Source: Aneurinibacillus sp.
Lineage (GTDB): Bacteria; Bacillota; UBA5301; DYFA01
Reading direction: 5' to 3'
NCBI GenBank assembly: GCA_020725425.1
Contig: DYFA01000034.1
Span: 1-47,039, forward strand
DNA: 47,039 nt
Shown here in pieces: positions 38,884 to 47,039 of the stretch. Below the pieces are notes generated by a model. That model made no database searches. It was not told the origin of the DNA and saw only the letters and a program-made list of their open reading frames with translations. Position 1 is the stretch's first letter. Every line of letters starts with the position of its first letter. The position numbers and the translations under genes were made by a program.

Positions 38884-39333
38884 CTAGCGCGGCGGGGTGT
38901 TCTTCTCGATCAGGCTGGTGACCCAGTACGCCACGACCAGGACCAGCGTCAGAATACCGTTAAGACCCAGCTCCACGACGTAATGCTGGAACTGGCTGGC
39001 CGAGCCTTCACCCAGCATGGACATCCGGGCGCCGACCATCAGCAGGTGCCGCACCACGGAGATCGTGCCGACGATCAGGAAGGGCTTCAAGGCGAAGTCG
39101 CGGTGCTCGAAGTGGGAGGTGACAGTGCTCAGGACCTCCAGCACGATGATTACGAACAGGAGGTCGTTGACCACGCGCAGGATCGTCCCCATGAAGTCGT
39201 GGCGGAGCCCCGCCAGGCCGGTCCATACCGCCTGGGCGAACACCGCTGTGGCGACCGCCACCAGGCCCACGGCCACTGCCCAGTGAAGGGCCCGGTCGAG
39301 ACATTTCACGAGCTTCGCTCCGTTCACGTTCAT
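38884..39333 (-). CDS. PsiE-family membrane protein
   Basis: A 149-residue protein with four hydrophobic segments and the PsiE signature (LEVLSTVTSHFEHRDFALKPFLIVGTI split across residues about 80-105, then ISVVRHLLMVGARM). PsiE is phosphate-starvation inducible in E. coli; its function is unknown. The ATG at 39331-39333 has GGGAGGGG upstream and starts at the usual family N-terminus; an upstream extension would cross the cytochrome promoter. It is divergent from the cytochrome cluster. Confidence 0.82.
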   Translation of the reverse strand: MNVNGAKLVKCLDRALHWAVAVGLVAVATAVFAQAVWTGLAGLRHDFMGTILRVVNDLLFVIIVLEVLSTVTSHFEHRDFALKPFLIVGTISVVRHLLMVGARMSMLGEGSASQFQHYVVELGLNGILTLVLVVAYWVTSLIEKNTPPR

Positions 39334-39373
39334 CCCGCCCCTCCCATCGTGCTTTGACAAGCGCAGGCAAGCG

Positions 39374-39385
39374 CAACATATGTTG
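39374..39385. promoter_or_regulatory. 12-bp perfect palindrome overlapping the cytochrome promoter -35
   Basis: CAACATATGTTG overlaps the first three bases of the TTGACA. A second dyad, TTGCAC-N10-GTGCAA (39400-39421), straddles the -10. Both are placed as operators would be, in the divergent psiE/cytochrome gap. Confidence 0.5.
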
Positions 39386-39411
39386 ACACCATAGGATAAT
39401 TGCACTACAAT
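39383..39411 (+). promoter_or_regulatory. Near-consensus SigA promoter of the cytochrome cluster
   Basis: TTGACA (39383-39388), 17-base spacer, TACAAT (39406-39411). Predicted transcription start is near 39418, about 20 bases before the riboswitch and 240 bases before the first cytochrome start. Confidence 0.85.
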
Positions 39412-39436
39412 TAGTGTGCAACACAAGTATACTAGC

Positions 39437-39540
39437 ACCCGCGGCCGGAAAGGGCAACCCTTCCGAAAGGAAGGCGGCGCAAAGCACTGGGTCTACGGTT
39501 CCGAAAGGAGCTATGACAGCCGTGCTGCCGAAGACCAGGG
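39437..39540 (+). promoter_or_regulatory. GEMM-I cyclic-dinucleotide riboswitch (probable c-di-GMP-I)
   Basis: The conserved core aligns base for base with the Vibrio Vc2 aptamer: AGGGCAAC, a 6-bp stem capped by GAAA (CCTTCC/GGAAGG), then GCGCAAAGC, followed by the tetraloop-receptor arm GGGTCTACGG...CTATGACAGCC and TGCCGAAG. The position equivalent to Vc2 G20 is G and the intercalating A47 is present, favouring c-di-GMP over cGAMP. There is one extra base before GCAAAG. An intrinsic terminator follows at 39581, making a transcription-control switch ahead of the cytochrome gene. Confidence 0.87.
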
Positions 39541-39580
39541 TTAAGAAGCACGATAGCCCACTTCCGCCACGCCGCTGCGC

Positions 39581-39617
39581 AAAACCTGTTCCTCTGGCGG
39601 AGGGGAACAGGTTTTTT
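39581..39617 (+). terminator. Riboswitch-linked intrinsic terminator
   Basis: A perfect 12-bp stem (AAAACCTGTTCC with GGAACAGGTTTT), 11-base loop and a T tract to 39617. It sits 40 bases after the GEMM-I aptamer and 40 bases before the cytochrome start. The loop segment TGGCGGAGG (39595-39603) can instead pair with CTTCCGCCA at 39561-39569, a candidate antiterminator helix. Confidence 0.92.
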
Positions 39618-39657
39618 GTTACGTCCGGCCGGTGGACGAAGAGGAGGGGCGGAAGCC

Positions 39658-40791
39658 GTGCATGGCTCAATCTTCCGTCCGGAAGCGAGAGGTGCAGCCT
39701 TCCAGGGGCTGGGGGTCCTGGTGGGCTTGCTCTGGCTGGCGCTGTCCGTCCCGCAGCCGGCCCAGGCCGCCACCGGAACCTGCTCCCCTTGCCACGCCCG
39801 GATCCTCTCCTCCTGGGTCGGGTCGACTCACCAGGCTGCCGGAGCGCAGGTCAAGGGGGGCTTCCGCTGCCAGGAGTGCCACCTTCCCAGTCTGCTGCAT
39901 CCCTCGGCCGTCACGCCGGCCAATTCCCCCGACCGCTGCGGCCGGTGCCACTGGGCCCAGACAGCCGGGAAGTCGGGAAAGCGGCCGACCTTCCAGCCCA
40001 AGACGGTTCTCGACCAAAAAGCCTGGAAGGACAGCAAGCATGCGGCAGTGAAGGTCAACTGCACCTCCTGTCACAGCGCTCACCGCTACGCGGAGGGGGG
40101 CGACCAGCACCTGCTGCGGCAGGCCGGAGATGCGCTGTGCCGGAGTTGTCACCGCGAGGTGAGACACCAGGCTTCCGGGAGTACGGCCGAGGCGATCGCG
40201 AAGCAGCCGTGCGTGGCCTGCCACGACCCTCACCGCAAGGAGGGGAGCTTGCTCAAGAGCTGGAGCGGCGGGGAGAAGCGCGATTTCCAGAAGAGGGTGG
40301 TCCACAAGCCGGTGGCGGAGAAGAACTGCAAGGCCTGCCACAGCGCCCACGTGATGATCTTCGGGACGACACCGCCCGAGACCGACGAGGAGCTGGAGGA
40401 AGAGCCGGCCCCCGGGGGAGCGCCGAAGGTGGCCAAGGGACTGTTGCTCGCCGAGGGGCGGGTTTTCTGCTATCTGTGCCACGGGAAGTTCAAGGAGAAG
40501 TTCGAGGCCAGTGGCCACGCGCGCATCCACCGGTTCAAGCGGGGGGAGGAACAGAGTCCCTGCATGGGCTGTCATCTGCCTCACGCCTCAGACTATCCGA
40601 GGCTGCTCCGGTACCCCGGCAACCAGCTCTGCCTCTCCTGCCATCCGGGCTACGCCCCCCACCACTTCCTGGCCCGGGGCGGCGTGAAGCAGAGCCAACT
40701 GGAGTGCGTGAAGTGTCACAACCCGCACGGGAGTGGAAACAAGCGCTTGCTGGTTCAGCCGAGCGTGTGTAAAATGTGCCACAACTTCTAA
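39658..40791 (+). CDS. Dodecaheme c-type cytochrome, exported
   Basis: A 377-residue protein with a Sec signal peptide (hydrophobic core GLGVLVGLLWLALSV, cleavage near Ala37) and 12 CxxCH heme sites: CSPCH, CQECH, CGRCH, CTSCH, CRSCH, CVACH, CKACH, CYLCH, CMGCH, CLSCH, CVKCH, CKMCH. Many extra His residues (SAHR, DPHR, SAHV, LPHA, NPHG) suit bis-His ligation. The layout resembles doubled-CxxCH and DmsE-type periplasmic electron carriers. The GTG at 39658 is chosen for GGAGGGG 8 bases upstream. It is first gene behind the riboswitch terminator. No C-terminal anchor is seen. Confidence 0.92.
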   Translation: MHGSIFRPEARGAAFQGLGVLVGLLWLALSVPQPAQAATGTCSPCHARILSSWVGSTHQAAGAQVKGGFRCQECHLPSLLHPSAVTPANSPDRCGRCHWAQTAGKSGKRPTFQPKTVLDQKAWKDSKHAAVKVNCTSCHSAHRYAEGGDQHLLRQAGDALCRSCHREVRHQASGSTAEAIAKQPCVACHDPHRKEGSLLKSWSGGEKRDFQKRVVHKPVAEKNCKACHSAHVMIFGTTPPETDEELEEEPAPGGAPKVAKGLLLAEGRVFCYLCHGKFKEKFEASGHARIHRFKRGEEQSPCMGCHLPHASDYPRLLRYPGNQLCLSCHPGYAPHHFLARGGVKQSQLECVKCHNPHGSGNKRLLVQPSVCKMCHNF

Positions 40792-40821
40792 TACTGGAAC
40801 GGACAGGAGGATTGTCCCACG

Positions 40822-41862
40822 GTGAAGCACGGGTGGTTCCGCCCAGCAATCATAGTCGCCTTGGCCGCCACGCTGGTTCTGGCCGGCGCAGGCTCGGGGC
40901 TGGCCGCCAAGAAGAAGCCGGTCGAGATCGTCTGGCCGCCGCCGCCGGAGAAGGCGCGGTTCAAGTACCTGGAGACGCTGCGTTCGAGCGACGATGTGAG
41001 CTCCGGCTTTAGCGTGGCCCTCCGCAAGCTCGTCCTGGGAAGCAACTCGGCCCAGGTCCGGCTCAAGCTGCCCTATGGCGTGGCCGTGGACTCCAAGGGC
41101 CGGATCTACGTCGCGGATTACGGCTATGCCACGGTGGCAGTCTTTGACAAGAAGGCCAAGAAGGCCTGGTATCTGGGGAAGACGGCCACGACCACCCTGG
41201 CTGGGCCGGTAGGCCTGGCCATCGGCCCGGGCGATACCGTCTTCGTCGCCGATACGAAGCTTCAAAGAGTCTTCAAGTTCTCCCCGGAAGGCCAGATTCT
41301 CTATGTCCTGGGGAGCAAGAAGGAGTTCGACAGCCCCTCGGGTGTGGCGGTGGACAAGGCCCAGGATGTTCTGTACGTGGTCGATTCGCAGCTGCACAAG
41401 GTCTTGAAGTTCCGCGCTTCCGACGGGACGCCGCTCGGTTCGCTCGGCGAGCGGGGGCGGGGGAACGGCCAGTTCAACTTTCCGACCAACATCTGGGTCG
41501 ATCAGAAGACCGGCCGGCTGCTCGTCTCGGATACCATGAACTTCCGGGTTCAGATCTTCGACCGGCAAGGCAACTTTCTCAAAGCCTTCGGCGAGGCAGG
41601 CGACGGCCCGGGGATGATGGCCCGCTCCCGGGGAGTGGCGGTGGACACGGACGGCCACATCTACGTCGTGGACGCCGCCTTCAACAACTTCCAGGTCTTC
41701 AACGACCAGGGGCAGCTGCTCCTCTGGGTCGGCCAGGGCGGAGTGGGCCCGGGCCAGTTCAACTCGCCGGCCGGCATCTTCATCGACGAGCAGAACCGGG
41801 TCTACGTCGCCGACCGGCTGAACGCCCGGGTACAGATAATACAGTTTCTGGGCGGTGACTAG
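40822..41862 (+). CDS. Exported NHL-repeat beta-propeller protein (copy 1)
   Basis: A 346-residue protein with a signal peptide (PAIIVALAATLVLAGAGSGLA) and about six NHL blades, each of the type PxGVAVDxxGRIYVADxxxxxVxVF. The N-terminal mature part begins with a WPPPPEKARFKYLETL segment that recurs in copy 2 (44796). NHL proteins neighbour nanowire cytochromes in Geobacter, but their job there is not known; a scaffold or assembly role is inference. GTG start, AGGAGG 11 bases upstream. Confidence 0.88.
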   Translation: MKHGWFRPAIIVALAATLVLAGAGSGLAAKKKPVEIVWPPPPEKARFKYLETLRSSDDVSSGFSVALRKLVLGSNSAQVRLKLPYGVAVDSKGRIYVADYGYATVAVFDKKAKKAWYLGKTATTTLAGPVGLAIGPGDTVFVADTKLQRVFKFSPEGQILYVLGSKKEFDSPSGVAVDKAQDVLYVVDSQLHKVLKFRASDGTPLGSLGERGRGNGQFNFPTNIWVDQKTGRLLVSDTMNFRVQIFDRQGNFLKAFGEAGDGPGMMARSRGVAVDTDGHIYVVDAAFNNFQVFNDQGQLLLWVGQGGVGPGQFNSPAGIFIDEQNRVYVADRLNARVQIIQFLGGD

Positions 41863-41925
41863 GGCTAGATCCCTCTGGGGGTTTAGCATAGAGAGAAGGC
41901 ACGGGGAGAAGGGAGGTGAAACAAG

Positions 41926-42609
41926 ATGAAACGCATACTAGCACTCGTCGCCACCGGACTTCTGGTGATACTGCTGGCCAGTACGACTGTGCTCGCCGTA
42001 GCGGGCGCCATCGCGAACACCAAGCACAACCTGGCCACCAGTGGGCCCAACGCTGATGCAAAGTCCACCGATGAGGATGAGATCTGCGTCTTCTGCCATA
42101 CCCCGCACAACGCCCGGGTCGCGGTCCCGCTGTGGAACCGGGATGCCTCGCCGGCAACCTACACGACTTACACCTCCAGCACGATCGACGGCACTCGGGA
42201 CACCATCACCGGCAGCAGCCCCAACATCTCCGTCCTCTGCCTGAGCTGCCATGACGGTGCCATCTCGTTGGGGGCGGTAGTCAACAACTACCCTGACGCC
42301 ACCGATCCAACGATCACCGGAAGCCACACCACCGCGGGCAAACTCAGCAGCGGCCGGGCTTTGCTCGGGATCGACCTCACCAACGACCATCCCATCGCGA
42401 TCACGTACAATACGACCCCCGGTGATCTGGTGGCGCCGGACGCAAACGGCTTGGTGGCCAGCACCTGCCAGCTCTTCAAGACCGGTGGTACCGGCGAGTG
42501 GAAGGTGGAGTGCGCCTCTTGCCACAGTGTCCACAACAACACCTACGCGCCTTTCCTGCGGGCGAGCAACGCCGGCAGCGCTCTCTGCCTGAAGTGCCAC
42601 ATCAAGTAG
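41926..42609 (+). CDS. Tetraheme c-type cytochrome, OmcE-like
   Basis: A 227-residue protein with a signal peptide (LALVATGLLVILLASTTVLA) and four CxxCH sites (CVFCH at 54, CLSCH, CASCH, CLKCH at the extreme C-terminus). Size, heme count and the pattern KHNL...CVFCHTPHN...PLWN...YTTY...CLSCHDG...DHPI...CASCHSVHN...LCLKCH resemble the Geobacter nanowire cytochrome OmcE. GGGAGGTGA precedes the ATG. A strong terminator follows. Homology to OmcE is judged by eye from memory of the pattern and should be tested by structure prediction. Confidence 0.85.
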   Translation: MKRILALVATGLLVILLASTTVLAVAGAIANTKHNLATSGPNADAKSTDEDEICVFCHTPHNARVAVPLWNRDASPATYTTYTSSTIDGTRDTITGSSPNISVLCLSCHDGAISLGAVVNNYPDATDPTITGSHTTAGKLSSGRALLGIDLTNDHPIAITYNTTPGDLVAPDANGLVASTCQLFKTGGTGEWKVECASCHSVHNNTYAPFLRASNAGSALCLKCHIK

Positions 42610-42646
42610 GGTAGGCGCGGCAACGACAGACAGCCTGTGTCGCAGC

Positions 42647-42678
42647 AGGGTGGGGCGGGCAACCGCCCGCCCCACCCT
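42647..42678 (+). terminator. Strong hairpin terminator after tetraheme cytochrome
   Basis: A perfect 14-bp GC-rich stem (AGGGTGGGGCGGGC with GCCCGCCCCACCCT) closed by an AACC tetraloop, followed by CTCTTTCGTTTC. It lies 37 bases past the stop and probably reduces read-through into the barrel gene, letting the tetraheme cytochrome be made in excess. Confidence 0.85.
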
Positions 42679-42719
42679 CTCTTTCGTTTCATCCTGTGCG
42701 GTGGGGGCGGGGGACCATC

Positions 42720-44780
42720 ATGCGGAGAGCTGAAGAAGCGTGTCGCTTGCTGAGCATCGTGCTTTTCGGAGCGATGGTGCTGGTCGGCGCTTCCGCTGAT
42801 TCACGCGCCGCCGAGTGGCGCCTGTTCGGAATCGACGGTTTCTCCGGCTACTTGGGCTTGAGATCGGACACGCTATTCGGGGAAACCTCTGGTGTCCCAT
42901 CGGACAAGCGCAGCTTGGAACAGCAAATCCGCCTGCGCTTGGGGTCGTATGTCTTCCATCCCAGGTTCCTCTCGCTTGACGCTGATACAGCTTTTGCCTT
43001 GCGCACGAGCTCCGACGGCGACTCCGGCTTCCGCAACCTCGACTCCCAGTTGGTCCTCGACCTATTGCCGCGGCATCCGCTCACTTTGGGCGTGACGGTC
43101 GCCTCTCGCGTGGAGAACCTGGAGCGCTCCTTTGTCCCTTATCAACGGGACGTGAAGGCGGGCGAACTTCGCCTCTCCTTCAATTCCCGGCTGGTGAACT
43201 CCGCACTCAAGTACGAAATCAACGAGGCCACATCGTTGGGCGCCCAACTGAGTGGCGGAACGTATGTGGTTCCTCCGGAGGACAAGCGGACGGAGTACCT
43301 CTCCTCCCAGACCAGTGTCCGCGTCCCCTCGCTTGACCGCATGTCCCTGCGTTACGATGGCGTCAGGACCGATGACCGGACCGCCGCCGGGACGGGGGAT
43401 TCAGAACATCATTCCGCCCAACTCGAGGTCGCCCAGTCCGTGTTGAACAAGCGCGGCCGGGTCAACGCCTCCGCCTCTGTCTGGCAGAAGGCCGTCCCGA
43501 CAGAGGAAGAGCGTCTTACTCTGCTGCAGAGCTGGACGATGGATTGGCGTCCCGGCCTCCGTTCAACGGAGAGCATCGAAGCCACCCGGCGGCGGGAGAA
43601 CAGCGAAGAAGCCAATACCTACAAGGTGGATCTCGGCCTGTCGCGGGAACTGAACGAGTGGTGGAGAGTCTCGGGCAACCTGGGCGGCGCCCAGTACAAG
43701 TCTGCCTCCAGCGAGAGCAGTTCTTATCGAGCCTCCGGCAGCGTAGGATATCTGAAGCAGTGGCAGGGATACCGCCTCTCAGCGGTGAACACGCTGGCCC
43801 TGAGCGAGGCGCTGGCCGGACCTTCCAAACGCATCAAGGTATACGACGAAAAGATCTCTCTGCCGCTTAACGGAACTCTCCCCGGGTTCTGGCAGCGCTT
43901 GGCCAACCCTTTCATTGATGAGAGCACCATCAAAGTGTTTGAAGACGGAGTACTCCGCAGGGACTGGACTAAGTTTTGCGAGAAGCGCAAGGTGGGAGCC
44001 TACACGGAGATCCGGTGGGTGCCGGACCCGACAGACCGGGACTACCCCTCCCTTGATCCGGATGCCCAGTTACTGCCGGTGCTGGTGAGCTACGACTACG
44101 TGCTCCCGGAGACGGACTATGCTGAACTGAGCAACAACTTGAACCTTGCCTTGAGCAGGGAGTTTGCCCCAGGAATGGGGCTGGATTCGACCTTCTCCGT
44201 CAACACCAAAGTCCCGGGGACGGCCGGCTCTGGCCTCGGCGGACTCAACTTCAGCGAAGCCGAGTACGAGCTGGGAGTGCAGGGGTACTTGAAGCGGCCA
44301 GAGTACGAGGCCTCCGCCGGCACTTCGGGGGGGCGGGACCGCCAGCGTTTTTTCCTGCGGGGTTCCACCAACCGGAACGGCTGGCAGCTCTCTGAGGCCT
44401 ACCAACTGGAACGGTTCCCCGACCTGGTCGGCCAGACGTTCGACACCAGGCTGAGCCACCTCTGGGGGATCAGCAACAAGACGCGGCTCAACCTTGAGCT
44501 GGGCGATCAGACCTACGTCGTCGACGGGCGAATGGAGCGGGGTCTGAGCTCCGCCAGAGTCGTGGCGGCGGTTCTCTTCAGTCCCTTCATGCGGATCGAA
44601 GTGGAGACGCGGGGCGAGGTGAATCGGGCCCTGCCCAACGACACCAGGCTGGCGTTGGACACCAAGTACTTCTGGCAGCAAGGACAACTCGATCTGACTG
44701 CGGGGTACGAACTGCGGTCCCGCACTTACGACCGGACAACGACCCACCGGCTTTATGCAACCATCATCCGGCGCTTCTAG
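42720..44780 (+). CDS. Putative outer-membrane beta-barrel (porin-like) protein
   Basis: A 686-residue protein with a signal peptide (LLSIVLFGAMVLVGASADSRA) and no cysteine-heme sites. The mature part is a long run of amphipathic 8-12 residue strands with alternating polar and hydrophobic residues, Arg/Glu/Ser-rich turns and aromatic strand ends. It terminates in YATIIRRF with a C-terminal Phe, as outer-membrane barrels do. An insert around residues 390-470 has PLNGTLPGFWQRLANPFIDE. It may be the barrel of a porin-cytochrome conduit. ATG at 42720 chosen over a GTG at 42696 because it directly precedes the signal peptide. Confidence 0.75.
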   Translation: MRRAEEACRLLSIVLFGAMVLVGASADSRAAEWRLFGIDGFSGYLGLRSDTLFGETSGVPSDKRSLEQQIRLRLGSYVFHPRFLSLDADTAFALRTSSDGDSGFRNLDSQLVLDLLPRHPLTLGVTVASRVENLERSFVPYQRDVKAGELRLSFNSRLVNSALKYEINEATSLGAQLSGGTYVVPPEDKRTEYLSSQTSVRVPSLDRMSLRYDGVRTDDRTAAGTGDSEHHSAQLEVAQSVLNKRGRVNASASVWQKAVPTEEERLTLLQSWTMDWRPGLRSTESIEATRRRENSEEANTYKVDLGLSRELNEWWRVSGNLGGAQYKSASSESSSYRASGSVGYLKQWQGYRLSAVNTLALSEALAGPSKRIKVYDEKISLPLNGTLPGFWQRLANPFIDESTIKVFEDGVLRRDWTKFCEKRKVGAYTEIRWVPDPTDRDYPSLDPDAQLLPVLVSYDYVLPETDYAELSNNLNLALSREFAPGMGLDSTFSVNTKVPGTAGSGLGGLNFSEAEYELGVQGYLKRPEYEASAGTSGGRDRQRFFLRGSTNRNGWQLSEAYQLERFPDLVGQTFDTRLSHLWGISNKTRLNLELGDQTYVVDGRMERGLSSARVVAAVLFSPFMRIEVETRGEVNRALPNDTRLALDTKYFWQQGQLDLTAGYELRSRTYDRTTTHRLYATIIRRF

Positions 44781-44795
44781 GAACTGGGTGAAAAC

Positions 44796-45824
44796 ATGTC
44801 AAGGAGACTGAGGCAACTGACATCCTTGGCCCTCCCGCTTGCCGCCCTCCTGGCAGGAGGACTGGCGGCGGCCGGGAAGGTCGCGCTCTACTGGCCGGCG
44901 CCGCCGCCCGACGCCCGCCTGGCTTACGTCACCCAGTTTCGGTCGGAGCGGGACTTTGCCAAGTCGAAGCGGACTCTCTGGCAGAAGATCAAGCGCCTTT
45001 TGGTCGGTTCGGAAGAGTTATGGGCCCTCCGCTCCCCGTTCGGGCTGGACGTCTTCGGCGAACAGCTCTACATCGCCGACCCGGAGGCCAGGACGATCTG
45101 GGTGGCTGACTTCAAAGGAGAGACCTTTTCGCCCTTCGTGCGGAGCACCGGGAAAGTGCCGCTCCCTTCGCCCATCGGCGTAGCGGTCGAAAGCGACGGG
45201 CGGGTTTTCGTCTCGGATTCCCAGCGCAACGCCGTCTTCGTCTTCTCCCCCAAGGGCACGCTCCTCGCCACCCTCGGAGCAGGGAAGTTTGGACGTCCGA
45301 CCGGCCTGGCGGTGGACCGGCAGCGCCACTGGCTGTACGCAGTAGACACAGTCCGAGGCGAAGTAGTCGTCTTCTCCACCAGCACCTTGAAAGAGGTTCG
45401 GCGCTTCGGGAAGATCGGGGAGGGCCCGGGTGAGTTCAATCTGCCGGTGCACCTCGCGGTGCGCGCCGGGATTGTCTACATCGTTGACACCATGAACTTC
45501 CGGGTCCAAGTCTTCAACGCTGAGGGGGAGTTTGTCGGTCTGTTCGGCCAGATGGGCGACGGTCCGGGAGATTTCGCCCGGCCCAAGGGGATCGGGGTGG
45601 ACTCCGAAGGGAACATCTATGTCGCCGATGCTCTTTTCGACAACGTTCAGATCTTCGACCGCCTCGGCCGGCTCCTGATGAGTTTCGGCAACCTGGGTGA
45701 GCGGGAGGGTCAGTTCTGGCTCCCGGCAGGGGTTGCCGTGGACTCACGGAACCGCGTTTACATTGCCGATTCGGCCAACCGGCGGATTCAGGTGTTCCAG
45801 TATCTAGGGCGCGGAGGTGATTGA
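44796..45824 (+). CDS. Exported NHL-repeat beta-propeller protein (copy 2)
   Basis: A 342-residue homologue of the NHL protein at 40822: signal peptide (LALPLAALLAGGLAAAG), WPAPPPDARLAYVTQF, then about six blades, ending VYIADSANRRIQVFQYLG against VYVADRLNARVQIIQFLG in copy 1. It begins 15 bases after the barrel gene and is followed at 5 bases by another multiheme cytochrome, repeating the NHL-cytochrome order of copy 1. This implies a duplicated gene pair. Confidence 0.88.
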   Translation: MSRRLRQLTSLALPLAALLAGGLAAAGKVALYWPAPPPDARLAYVTQFRSERDFAKSKRTLWQKIKRLLVGSEELWALRSPFGLDVFGEQLYIADPEARTIWVADFKGETFSPFVRSTGKVPLPSPIGVAVESDGRVFVSDSQRNAVFVFSPKGTLLATLGAGKFGRPTGLAVDRQRHWLYAVDTVRGEVVVFSTSTLKEVRRFGKIGEGPGEFNLPVHLAVRAGIVYIVDTMNFRVQVFNAEGEFVGLFGQMGDGPGDFARPKGIGVDSEGNIYVADALFDNVQIFDRLGRLLMSFGNLGEREGQFWLPAGVAVDSRNRVYIADSANRRIQVFQYLGRGGD

Positions 45825-45829
45825 CGGGC

Positions 45830-47039
45830 ATGAAGGCCAAGCCGACAATAGTGGGCCTCGGTACGGTGGCTATTGCACTCGGCCTGGTGCTCTCGCTGGG
45901 CCAGGCCGCTCATGCCCTGATCAGCACAACCAAGCACAATCTCTCGGTGAGCGGGCCGGGGACCATCAAGGCCACCTCGGAGACCCGCATCTGCCGTTTT
46001 TGCCACGTCCCCCACAATGCTAACCCCGCCGTCCCCCTCTGGGGCCATACCCAGAACAGCGCCTCCTACACCATCTACACCTCCAGCACCATCCAGGGCA
46101 CCACCGGCCAGCCCAACGGCGCAAGCAAGCAGTGCCTCAGCTGCCACGACGGCGCCGTCGCCCTCGGCTCGGTGGTCCCCTCTTACACCATCACCAGCGG
46201 CTCCATCGCCATGAACCAGACCTACATGCCCGCCGGCCCCTCAAACCTCGGCACCAACCTCAGCGACGACCACCCCGTCTCCCTTGTGGCCAGCGGGTCG
46301 GACCCCGAGATCGTCACCAACCCCTCCGACCCCAAGGTCAAGTACGACTCCACCGGCCGCGTCCAGTGCACCTCCTGCCACAACCCGCACGACAACACCC
46401 ACGGCAAGTTCCTGGTCAAGCCCAACACCGTGGCCGGGGACTTCGGCTCCCAGATCTGTGTGGTCTGCCATGCCAAGTTCAACTGGACCAGCGCCCAGAA
46501 CTCCCACCGCAACTCCACCAAGCTCTACAATTCGGTGCCCCTCAAGGAGCAGGGCTGCGCCATCTGCCACAAGCCTCACTCCACCCCGGTCGCCACCAGG
46601 CTCCTCTTGGGCTCTGAGGAGGCGCTCTGCAACACCTGCCACGACGGCTCCCCCGCGGCGAAGAACGTCGCCGGGGAGTTCACCCGCACCTACAAGCATC
46701 CGCTCTCGACCTCCGCCAAGCACGACCCCGCCGAGACCTTCACCGACCTGAACGACTCGCTCAAGCGCCACTCAGAGTGCGAGGACTGCCACAACCCCCA
46801 CAGCGCCCAGGCCGGGACCCATACCCAGGGCAGTTCCAAGATCGGGGCGGTGCTTTTGGGGGCGTGGGGGATGAAGCCGGTCTACGACACCAACCCCTGG
46901 ACCGACCCGGTATCGTGGCAGAAGGTCGTCTTCACCGACACCGCCGGAGCGGACATGATCGAGGCCTATCTCTGCTTCAAGTGTCACAAGACCCTGGCCC
47001 GGGACTTCAACCCCAACAACCCCTCCTACCATGCGGCGG
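45830..47039 (+). CDS. Multiheme c-type cytochrome, OmcE-like N-terminal module (3' end off window)
   Basis: 403 codons are present with no stop. There is a signal peptide (GLGTVAIALGLVLSLGQAAHA) and eight CxxCH sites so far: CRFCH, CLSCH, CTSCH, CVVCH, CAICH, CNTCH, CEDCH, CFKCH. The first ~200 residues parallel the tetraheme protein at 41926 (TKHNLSVSGP, CRFCHVPHN, VPLWG, YTIYTSSTI, CLSCHDGAVALGSVV, DDHPVSL). Further heme modules follow. The ATG follows GGAGGTGA by 9 bases. Likely an extended relative of the nanowire-type cytochrome. Confidence 0.9.
   Translation, partial: MKAKPTIVGLGTVAIALGLVLSLGQAAHALISTTKHNLSVSGPGTIKATSETRICRFCHVPHNANPAVPLWGHTQNSASYTIYTSSTIQGTTGQPNGASKQCLSCHDGAVALGSVVPSYTITSGSIAMNQTYMPAGPSNLGTNLSDDHPVSLVASGSDPEIVTNPSDPKVKYDSTGRVQCTSCHNPHDNTHGKFLVKPNTVAGDFGSQICVVCHAKFNWTSAQNSHRNSTKLYNSVPLKEQGCAICHKPHSTPVATRLLLGSEEALCNTCHDGSPAAKNVAGEFTRTYKHPLSTSAKHDPAETFTDLNDSLKRHSECEDCHNPHSAQAGTHTQGSSKIGAVLLGAWGMKPVYDTNPWTDPVSWQKVVFTDTAGADMIEAYLCFKCHKTLARDFNPNNPSYHAA

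Follow-up and report, generated by a model that had tools for sequence, protein, structure and literature searches.

The window analysed here is an entire contig (C19) of 47,039 bases, from a host genome of 2.38 Mb in 72 contigs. At 39658-47039 it carries six consecutive open reading frames on the + strand for exported proteins, with signal peptides at all six N-termini as judged by inspection and with 12, 0, 4, 0, 0 and 8 heme motifs, respectively. The stretch ahead of these genes (39374-39650) is not empty, as promoter, riboswitch and terminator are all located in it. The features, all on the + strand, are as follows.

39383-39411 (+), sigma-70-type promoter, TTGACA-17-TACAAT, 11 of 12 consensus matches
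39443-39532 (+), c-di-GMP-I (GEMM-I) riboswitch aptamer, RF01051, 69.1 bits at a cut-off of 35, E 1.2e-13, full model 1-87
39581-39617 (+), intrinsic terminator belonging to the riboswitch expression platform, 15-bp stem without mismatch, then a U run
39658-40791 (+), cyt12, exported cytochrome c with 12 hemes, 12 CXXCH motifs, Pfam doubled-CXXCH 3e-37
40822-41862 (+), exported NHL beta-propeller 1, Pfam NHL 2.3e-34
41926-42609 (+), tetraheme OmcE homologue, 4 CXXCH motifs, PDB 7tfs E 1e-44 and 9yuq E 2.6e-30
42647-42678 (+), 14-bp GC-rich hairpin directly 3' of omcE, between omcE and the barrel gene
42720-44780 (+), predicted outer-membrane beta-barrel of an uncurated family, 26-28 strands, C-terminal F (AlphaFold2, HMM)
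44796-45824 (+), exported NHL beta-propeller 2, Pfam NHL 1.3e-27
45830-47039 (+), OmcE-like domain fused to a further multiheme region, 8 hemes before the contig end, PDB 7tfs E 1e-26

The cyt12 gene starts with GTG and has AGGAGG upstream, the barrel gene has an alternative GTG start at 42696, and ATG 45830 is the best start of the last cytochrome gene. The contig stops at 47039 inside this last gene, which leaves the locus truncated. Joining the contig end to contig C51 or C3 was rejected, since both end in a different NHL gene and not in the last gene of the operon. An earlier note, made from the DNA letters alone, had described six exported proteins in a row (a 12-heme cytochrome, an NHL protein, a tetraheme cytochrome, a barrel, a second NHL protein and a cytochrome of 8 or more hemes), and the reading frames, the CXXCH counts and the Pfam and PDB matches bear out this description. 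In view of the doubled-CXXCH (3e-37), NHL (2e-34) and OmcE (1e-44) matches and of a gene order that is kept across phyla, the locus is not a chance pattern. The hairpin at 42647-42678 could be an attenuator or a transcript stabiliser; a possible effect is a higher output of OmcE than of barrel. Divergent from the operon lies a gene for a PsiE-family membrane protein (38884-39438, − strand), the longest frame of which overlaps the operon promoter region.

The assignment of the contig to the Firmicutes, already proposed from its gene content, holds. CtsR is found in 21 of 21 relatives, whereas among 14 controls only Lactococcus has it; the genes for ClpC, McsB and McsA adjoin that for CtsR, and the host belongs to the same phylum as Candidatus Frackibacter WG13. 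The earlier note had further regarded this as a lineage in which barrel-based conduits are not standard, a view that finds no support: BamA and LpxC are encoded in all seven class genomes, the window genome harbors together with them a cluster for LptA-like, OmpH and TamB proteins, and OmcE, NHL and barrel genes occur in six of the seven. To judge from its LPS and Bam genes the class is diderm. A search for LptD (PF04453) gave no match, but this search is uninformative as the family was found in only 2 of the 14 controls. Among 300 genomes sampled from the phylum, LpxC is present in 63 and an OmcE-family gene in 7, which are all LpxC-positive and represent only two lineages. A locus that is common to the class of a diderm host is not odd for this host, nor is it misplaced or unique.

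The same data bear on whether a proteobacterial cytochrome operon was joined to a Firmicute contig during binning or assembly. The contig does end inside the operon and most relatives are from other phyla, as such a joint would have it. On the other hand, CtsR and the operon are on one contig, OmcE, NHL and barrel homologues recur through the class as described above, the fusion proteins of the class form one tree group with a support of 90, and riboswitches of the same class are present in 7 of 7 class genomes. An artefact is therefore largely refuted, and we regard it as highly improbable.

Among proteins of known structure, the product of the 41926 gene matches the OmcE filament protein of Geobacter sulfurreducens (PDB 7tfs) in a phmmer search over residues 11-227, that is over the whole chain, and the newer structure 9yuq is matched as well. 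Of the 210 aligned residues 98 are identical to OmcE (47%). The window protein was aligned with 25 homologues taken from other genomes; in these 26 sequences the four CXXCH motifs and exactly four further histidines, H34, H61, H155 and H203, are invariant, and the latter align with the four distal histidines of 7tfs. On these grounds of sequence the protein with four hemes is a genuine homologue of OmcE, and the identification of the locus as one for OmcE-type extracellular electron transfer, put forward in the earlier note, is supported by the OmcE homology with all distal histidines in place. The resemblance to the Geobacter protein extends from full-length homology and the heme and histidine motifs to the C-terminal end, whereas here the protein comes from a diderm Firmicute, its operon also encodes a large barrel and an OmcE-fusion cytochrome, and filament formation is a prediction.

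In the published structures of OmcE and OmcS, the heme at the interface has as one ligand a histidine from the next subunit (PMC12954529, PMC9473688). Because this heme is shared in the known structures and the four CXXCH motifs and four distal histidines are invariant, the ligand set for polymerisation is kept, and the homologue may polymerise. An AlphaFold2 monomer, modelled without heme, had a pLDDT of 49.5 and gave no usable fold match. Alternatively, the protein could be a soluble or surface-bound electron carrier which does not polymerise. In keeping with this, filaments of G. sulfurreducens OmcE have been called a mutant artefact (PMC11077965). However, the four distal histidines are all invariant, as many as bis-His ligation needs when one of them is shared across the interface, and the protein is 47% identical to one solved as a filament, which makes a non-polymerising carrier unlikely.

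The last gene encodes a protein of which residues 19-219 match OmcE (7tfs) at 1e-26 and which then continues into a larger multiheme part. The 45830 protein had been taken for a tetraheme cytochrome; it is instead composed of an OmcE-like N-terminal domain and an extension, with 11 hemes in most relatives. Complete relatives encoded directly behind an NHL gene (n = 51) have 11 hemes in 34 cases and 10 hemes in 10, and the full-length protein is accordingly expected to carry about 11. In class relatives, open reading frames that by eye resemble ResB and CcsA lie directly 3' of the 11-heme fusion gene. A gene for a B12-binding radical SAM protein is also found closely downstream of the fusion gene in several class genomes (L135, 14854-16341; L172, 8837-10318; L170, 3653-5113). 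Such a radical SAM protein, with 48% identity, is likewise encoded near the Frackibacter OmcE loci (L074, 15901-17361), and the homologue of the window genome is on contig C25. In the tree of fusion proteins the window's class forms its supported group apart from Frackibacter; because the two sets of sequences group separately, the tree does not establish a single Firmicute origin.

The barrel protein gave no Pfam or NCBIfam porin match above cut-off. A profile HMM made from the barrels that occupy this position in loci of other phyla, with the window's class excluded, matches the protein at 1.2e-29; of 300 shuffled sequences none was reported at E≤10. The AlphaFold2 model (pLDDT 81.9) has 26-28 long strands. 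When Foldseek matches were ranked by E-value, TonB transporters came first and MtrB (6r2q_B) was at rank 15; by TM-score MtrB was the best, at 0.49/0.52 as compared to at most 0.38/0.44 for the other 49 matches listed, although a TM-score of about 0.5 is borderline. A search of the PDB with the barrel profile found no MtrB match by sequence. The model thus predicts a very large outer-membrane barrel of MtrB size that could hold a multiheme cytochrome, not a demonstrated MtrB.

The cyt12 protein scored 94.7 bits against the DmsE/MtrA family TIGR03508, below the cut-off of 192.2, and its profile matches MtrA (6r2q_A) at 3.7e-26. This match was withdrawn as support for an MtrA identity because it lacks specificity: MtrA is matched better by another, unrelated cytochrome with 12 hemes from contig C15 of the host genome (2.9e-10) than by cyt12 (1.1e-7). 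For the surface decaheme protein MtrC/OmcA, the TIGR03507 score was 14.7 bits, under the cut-off of 209, and no member of the MtrC family was found. Similar to MtrCAB (PDB 6r2q), the operon combines a very large barrel, for which MtrB is the best TM match, with a long multiheme cytochrome. Unlike in MtrCAB, the barrel has no sequence homology to MtrB, cyt12 stays under the DmsE/MtrA cut-off and an MtrC family member is lacking.

It is conceivable that no electrons pass through the barrel at all and that it is an export or assembly pore for OmcE-family proteins, aided by the NHL proteins, with another complex crossing the membrane. The missing sequence homology to MtrB would agree with this, as would the distribution of the genes: barrel genes accompany those for OmcE and the fusion protein across many phyla, whereas a gene for cyt12, the candidate plug, can be recognised beside the barrel gene mostly in loci of Firmicutes. 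By TM-score, however, the 26-28 strands bring the barrel closer in size to MtrB than to 22-strand transporters, and an export pore is in our view possible but rather doubtful.

Related loci were collected with NHL protein 1 as the query. An NHL gene is therefore present in them by design, whereas the genes for OmcE, barrel and fusion protein are linked to it independently of the query. The order NHL-OmcE-barrel-NHL-OmcE fusion, with at most small insertions, is present in 28 of 81 loci (window included), most of the loci being from metagenome bins, and the loci with this order have one barrel family in common. The order is distributed over nine phyla, namely Nitrospirota, Pseudomonadota, Aquificota, Bacteroidota, Myxococcota, Acidobacteriota, Fidelibacterota, Schekmanbacteria and Bacillota. 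Orthologues of cyt12, all with 12 hemes, were found in two class genomes and two Frackibacter loci, and a search added a fourth class genome. The earlier note had suggested to look for the gene order in other Firmicutes, and the full arrangement cyt12-NHL-OmcE-barrel-NHL-fusion is indeed present in Candidatus Frackibacter sp. WG13 (L074; a further locus is L063). This Firmicute also has a c-di-GMP riboswitch before OmcE-like genes, but there it is of class II and precedes other OmcE paralogues, and the fusion proteins group apart from those of the window's class.

The same gene order is also found in Candidatus Manganitrophaceae, Persephonella and Thiodiazotropha, which are lineages known for lithotrophy, and this would fit a system that takes up electrons from outside, for example from Fe(II), Mn(II), metals or partner cells. 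Another locus which points in this direction is that of Geoalkalibacter ferrihydriticus, with an OmcE homologue, two NHL proteins, MtoA and larger multiheme cytochromes, which has been discussed for steel corrosion (PMC12016550). In contrast to that locus, the operon described here has no MtoA/MtrA-family member by curated cut-off, possesses a riboswitch and is from a different phylum. The sequence does not set a direction, and NapC/NirT-type cytochromes can run either way; electron uptake is a tentative reading to which we give less than even weight.

The operon head has the order promoter, riboswitch, terminator and ribosome-binding site of cyt12. The promoter lies 31 bases upstream of the riboswitch (promoter-type sites in the region: 2 found, 0.7 expected), and the isolated terminator hairpin segment has a computed folding energy of −24.7 kcal/mol. 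The riboswitch was also recovered in a genome-wide search. In our own mapping of the Rfam alignment, a G occupies the selectivity position, which corresponds to G20 of Vc2 and at which riboswitches for c-di-GMP also have G; this position is a selectivity factor but no hard filter (PMC9262584). The mapped base would suit c-di-GMP, with cGAMP as the other candidate ligand.

Five c-di-GMP-I riboswitches are present in the window genome, three of the others preceding flagellar rod genes, a prepilin peptidase gene and a secretin gene. Those located (L184, L187 and L194, on contigs C71, C41 and C32) resemble a surface-lifestyle regulon. All seven class genomes have riboswitches of this class, in one relative ahead of a tetraheme cytochrome. 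The heads of 38 related loci were scanned and gave no riboswitch except for the class II element in Frackibacter (L074, 19280-19364, − strand), which has its own terminator and lies about 150 bases before two OmcE-like genes. In two Thiodiazotropha genomes c-di-GMP-I riboswitches are located beside, not ahead of, the OmcE operons (L011, 19788-19876, − strand; L019, 20527-20615, − strand), where both precede a small exported protein. In Geobacter, GEMM-I riboswitches are found before the OmcST, OmcAHG and PgcA genes (PMC6456294). What these operons have in common with the present one is that surface cytochrome genes are preceded by a GEMM-I aptamer and a terminator, whereas the selectivity base here is G, many of the Geobacter riboswitches bind cGAMP, and cytochromes and phylum are different. 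The wiring of a riboswitch to cytochromes is thus known in kind from Geobacter and is seen here in another phylum.

Taken together, the operon is probably a c-di-GMP-controlled route of the OmcE type by which electrons cross the outer membrane and travel along a surface cytochrome filament. Its parts and their conservation are read from the sequences; from these we infer the electron steps, the polymerisation, the direction of the current and the role of the barrel. Quinol would be oxidised by NapC/NirT-type cytochromes encoded elsewhere, which would feed periplasmic hemes. The barrel would sheathe or dock a multiheme cytochrome, either cyt12 or the OmcE-fusion protein, in the way MtrB does MtrA, and electrons would cross the outer membrane at this point. 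OmcE subunits would then polymerise outside, each with one heme ligand from the neighbouring subunit, while the fusion protein may join the filament to the membrane or cap it, and the two NHL propellers may serve in assembly or anchoring. Some doubt attaches to the part played by OmcE, as its deletion in G. sulfurreducens left Fe(III) oxide reduction unimpaired and conduction along OmcE filaments is without demonstration (PMC11077965). Binding of c-di-GMP would set transcription past the terminator, either ON or OFF. The locus had been described as a complete route, which goes too far: the inner-membrane quinol step is not encoded in it, and the NapC/NirT cytochrome genes of the genome are on other contigs (C51 and C39). 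Genes of the CcsA type are also located elsewhere in the genome.

The main interest lies in the conserved module of barrel and OmcE-fusion protein and in its riboswitch control. A more speculative reading, which we advance with considerable reserve, is that this is a widespread, undescribed module in which an MtrB-size barrel of a new family is tied to an OmcE nanowire via a dedicated OmcE-fusion protein with 11 hemes, at which the filament begins, is anchored or is capped, and which in diderm Firmicutes is switched by two unrelated c-di-GMP riboswitch classes. If so, the module would supply the link that is missing between the outer membrane and the cytochrome filaments. It would bear on the attachment of filaments to the cell and on the nature of their ends; possible filament tip proteins were not considered in the paper on the OmcZ structure (PMC9473688). 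A fusion protein encoded beside a large barrel in nine phyla offers concrete candidates that are testable in cultured hosts. The present locus places such machinery in diderm Firmicutes, and because the riboswitch links it to c-di-GMP, control of the operon can be assayed directly in vitro.

A second NHL-cytochrome locus of the window genome is found on contigs C51 (L097, 1-1716) and C3 (L132, 2-571). It has the order NHL, tetraheme cytochrome, six-heme NapC/NirT cytochrome, hemA, CcsA and heme genes of the siroheme route. The pair of NHL and tetraheme genes occurs in four class genomes, mostly with a NapC-like gene.
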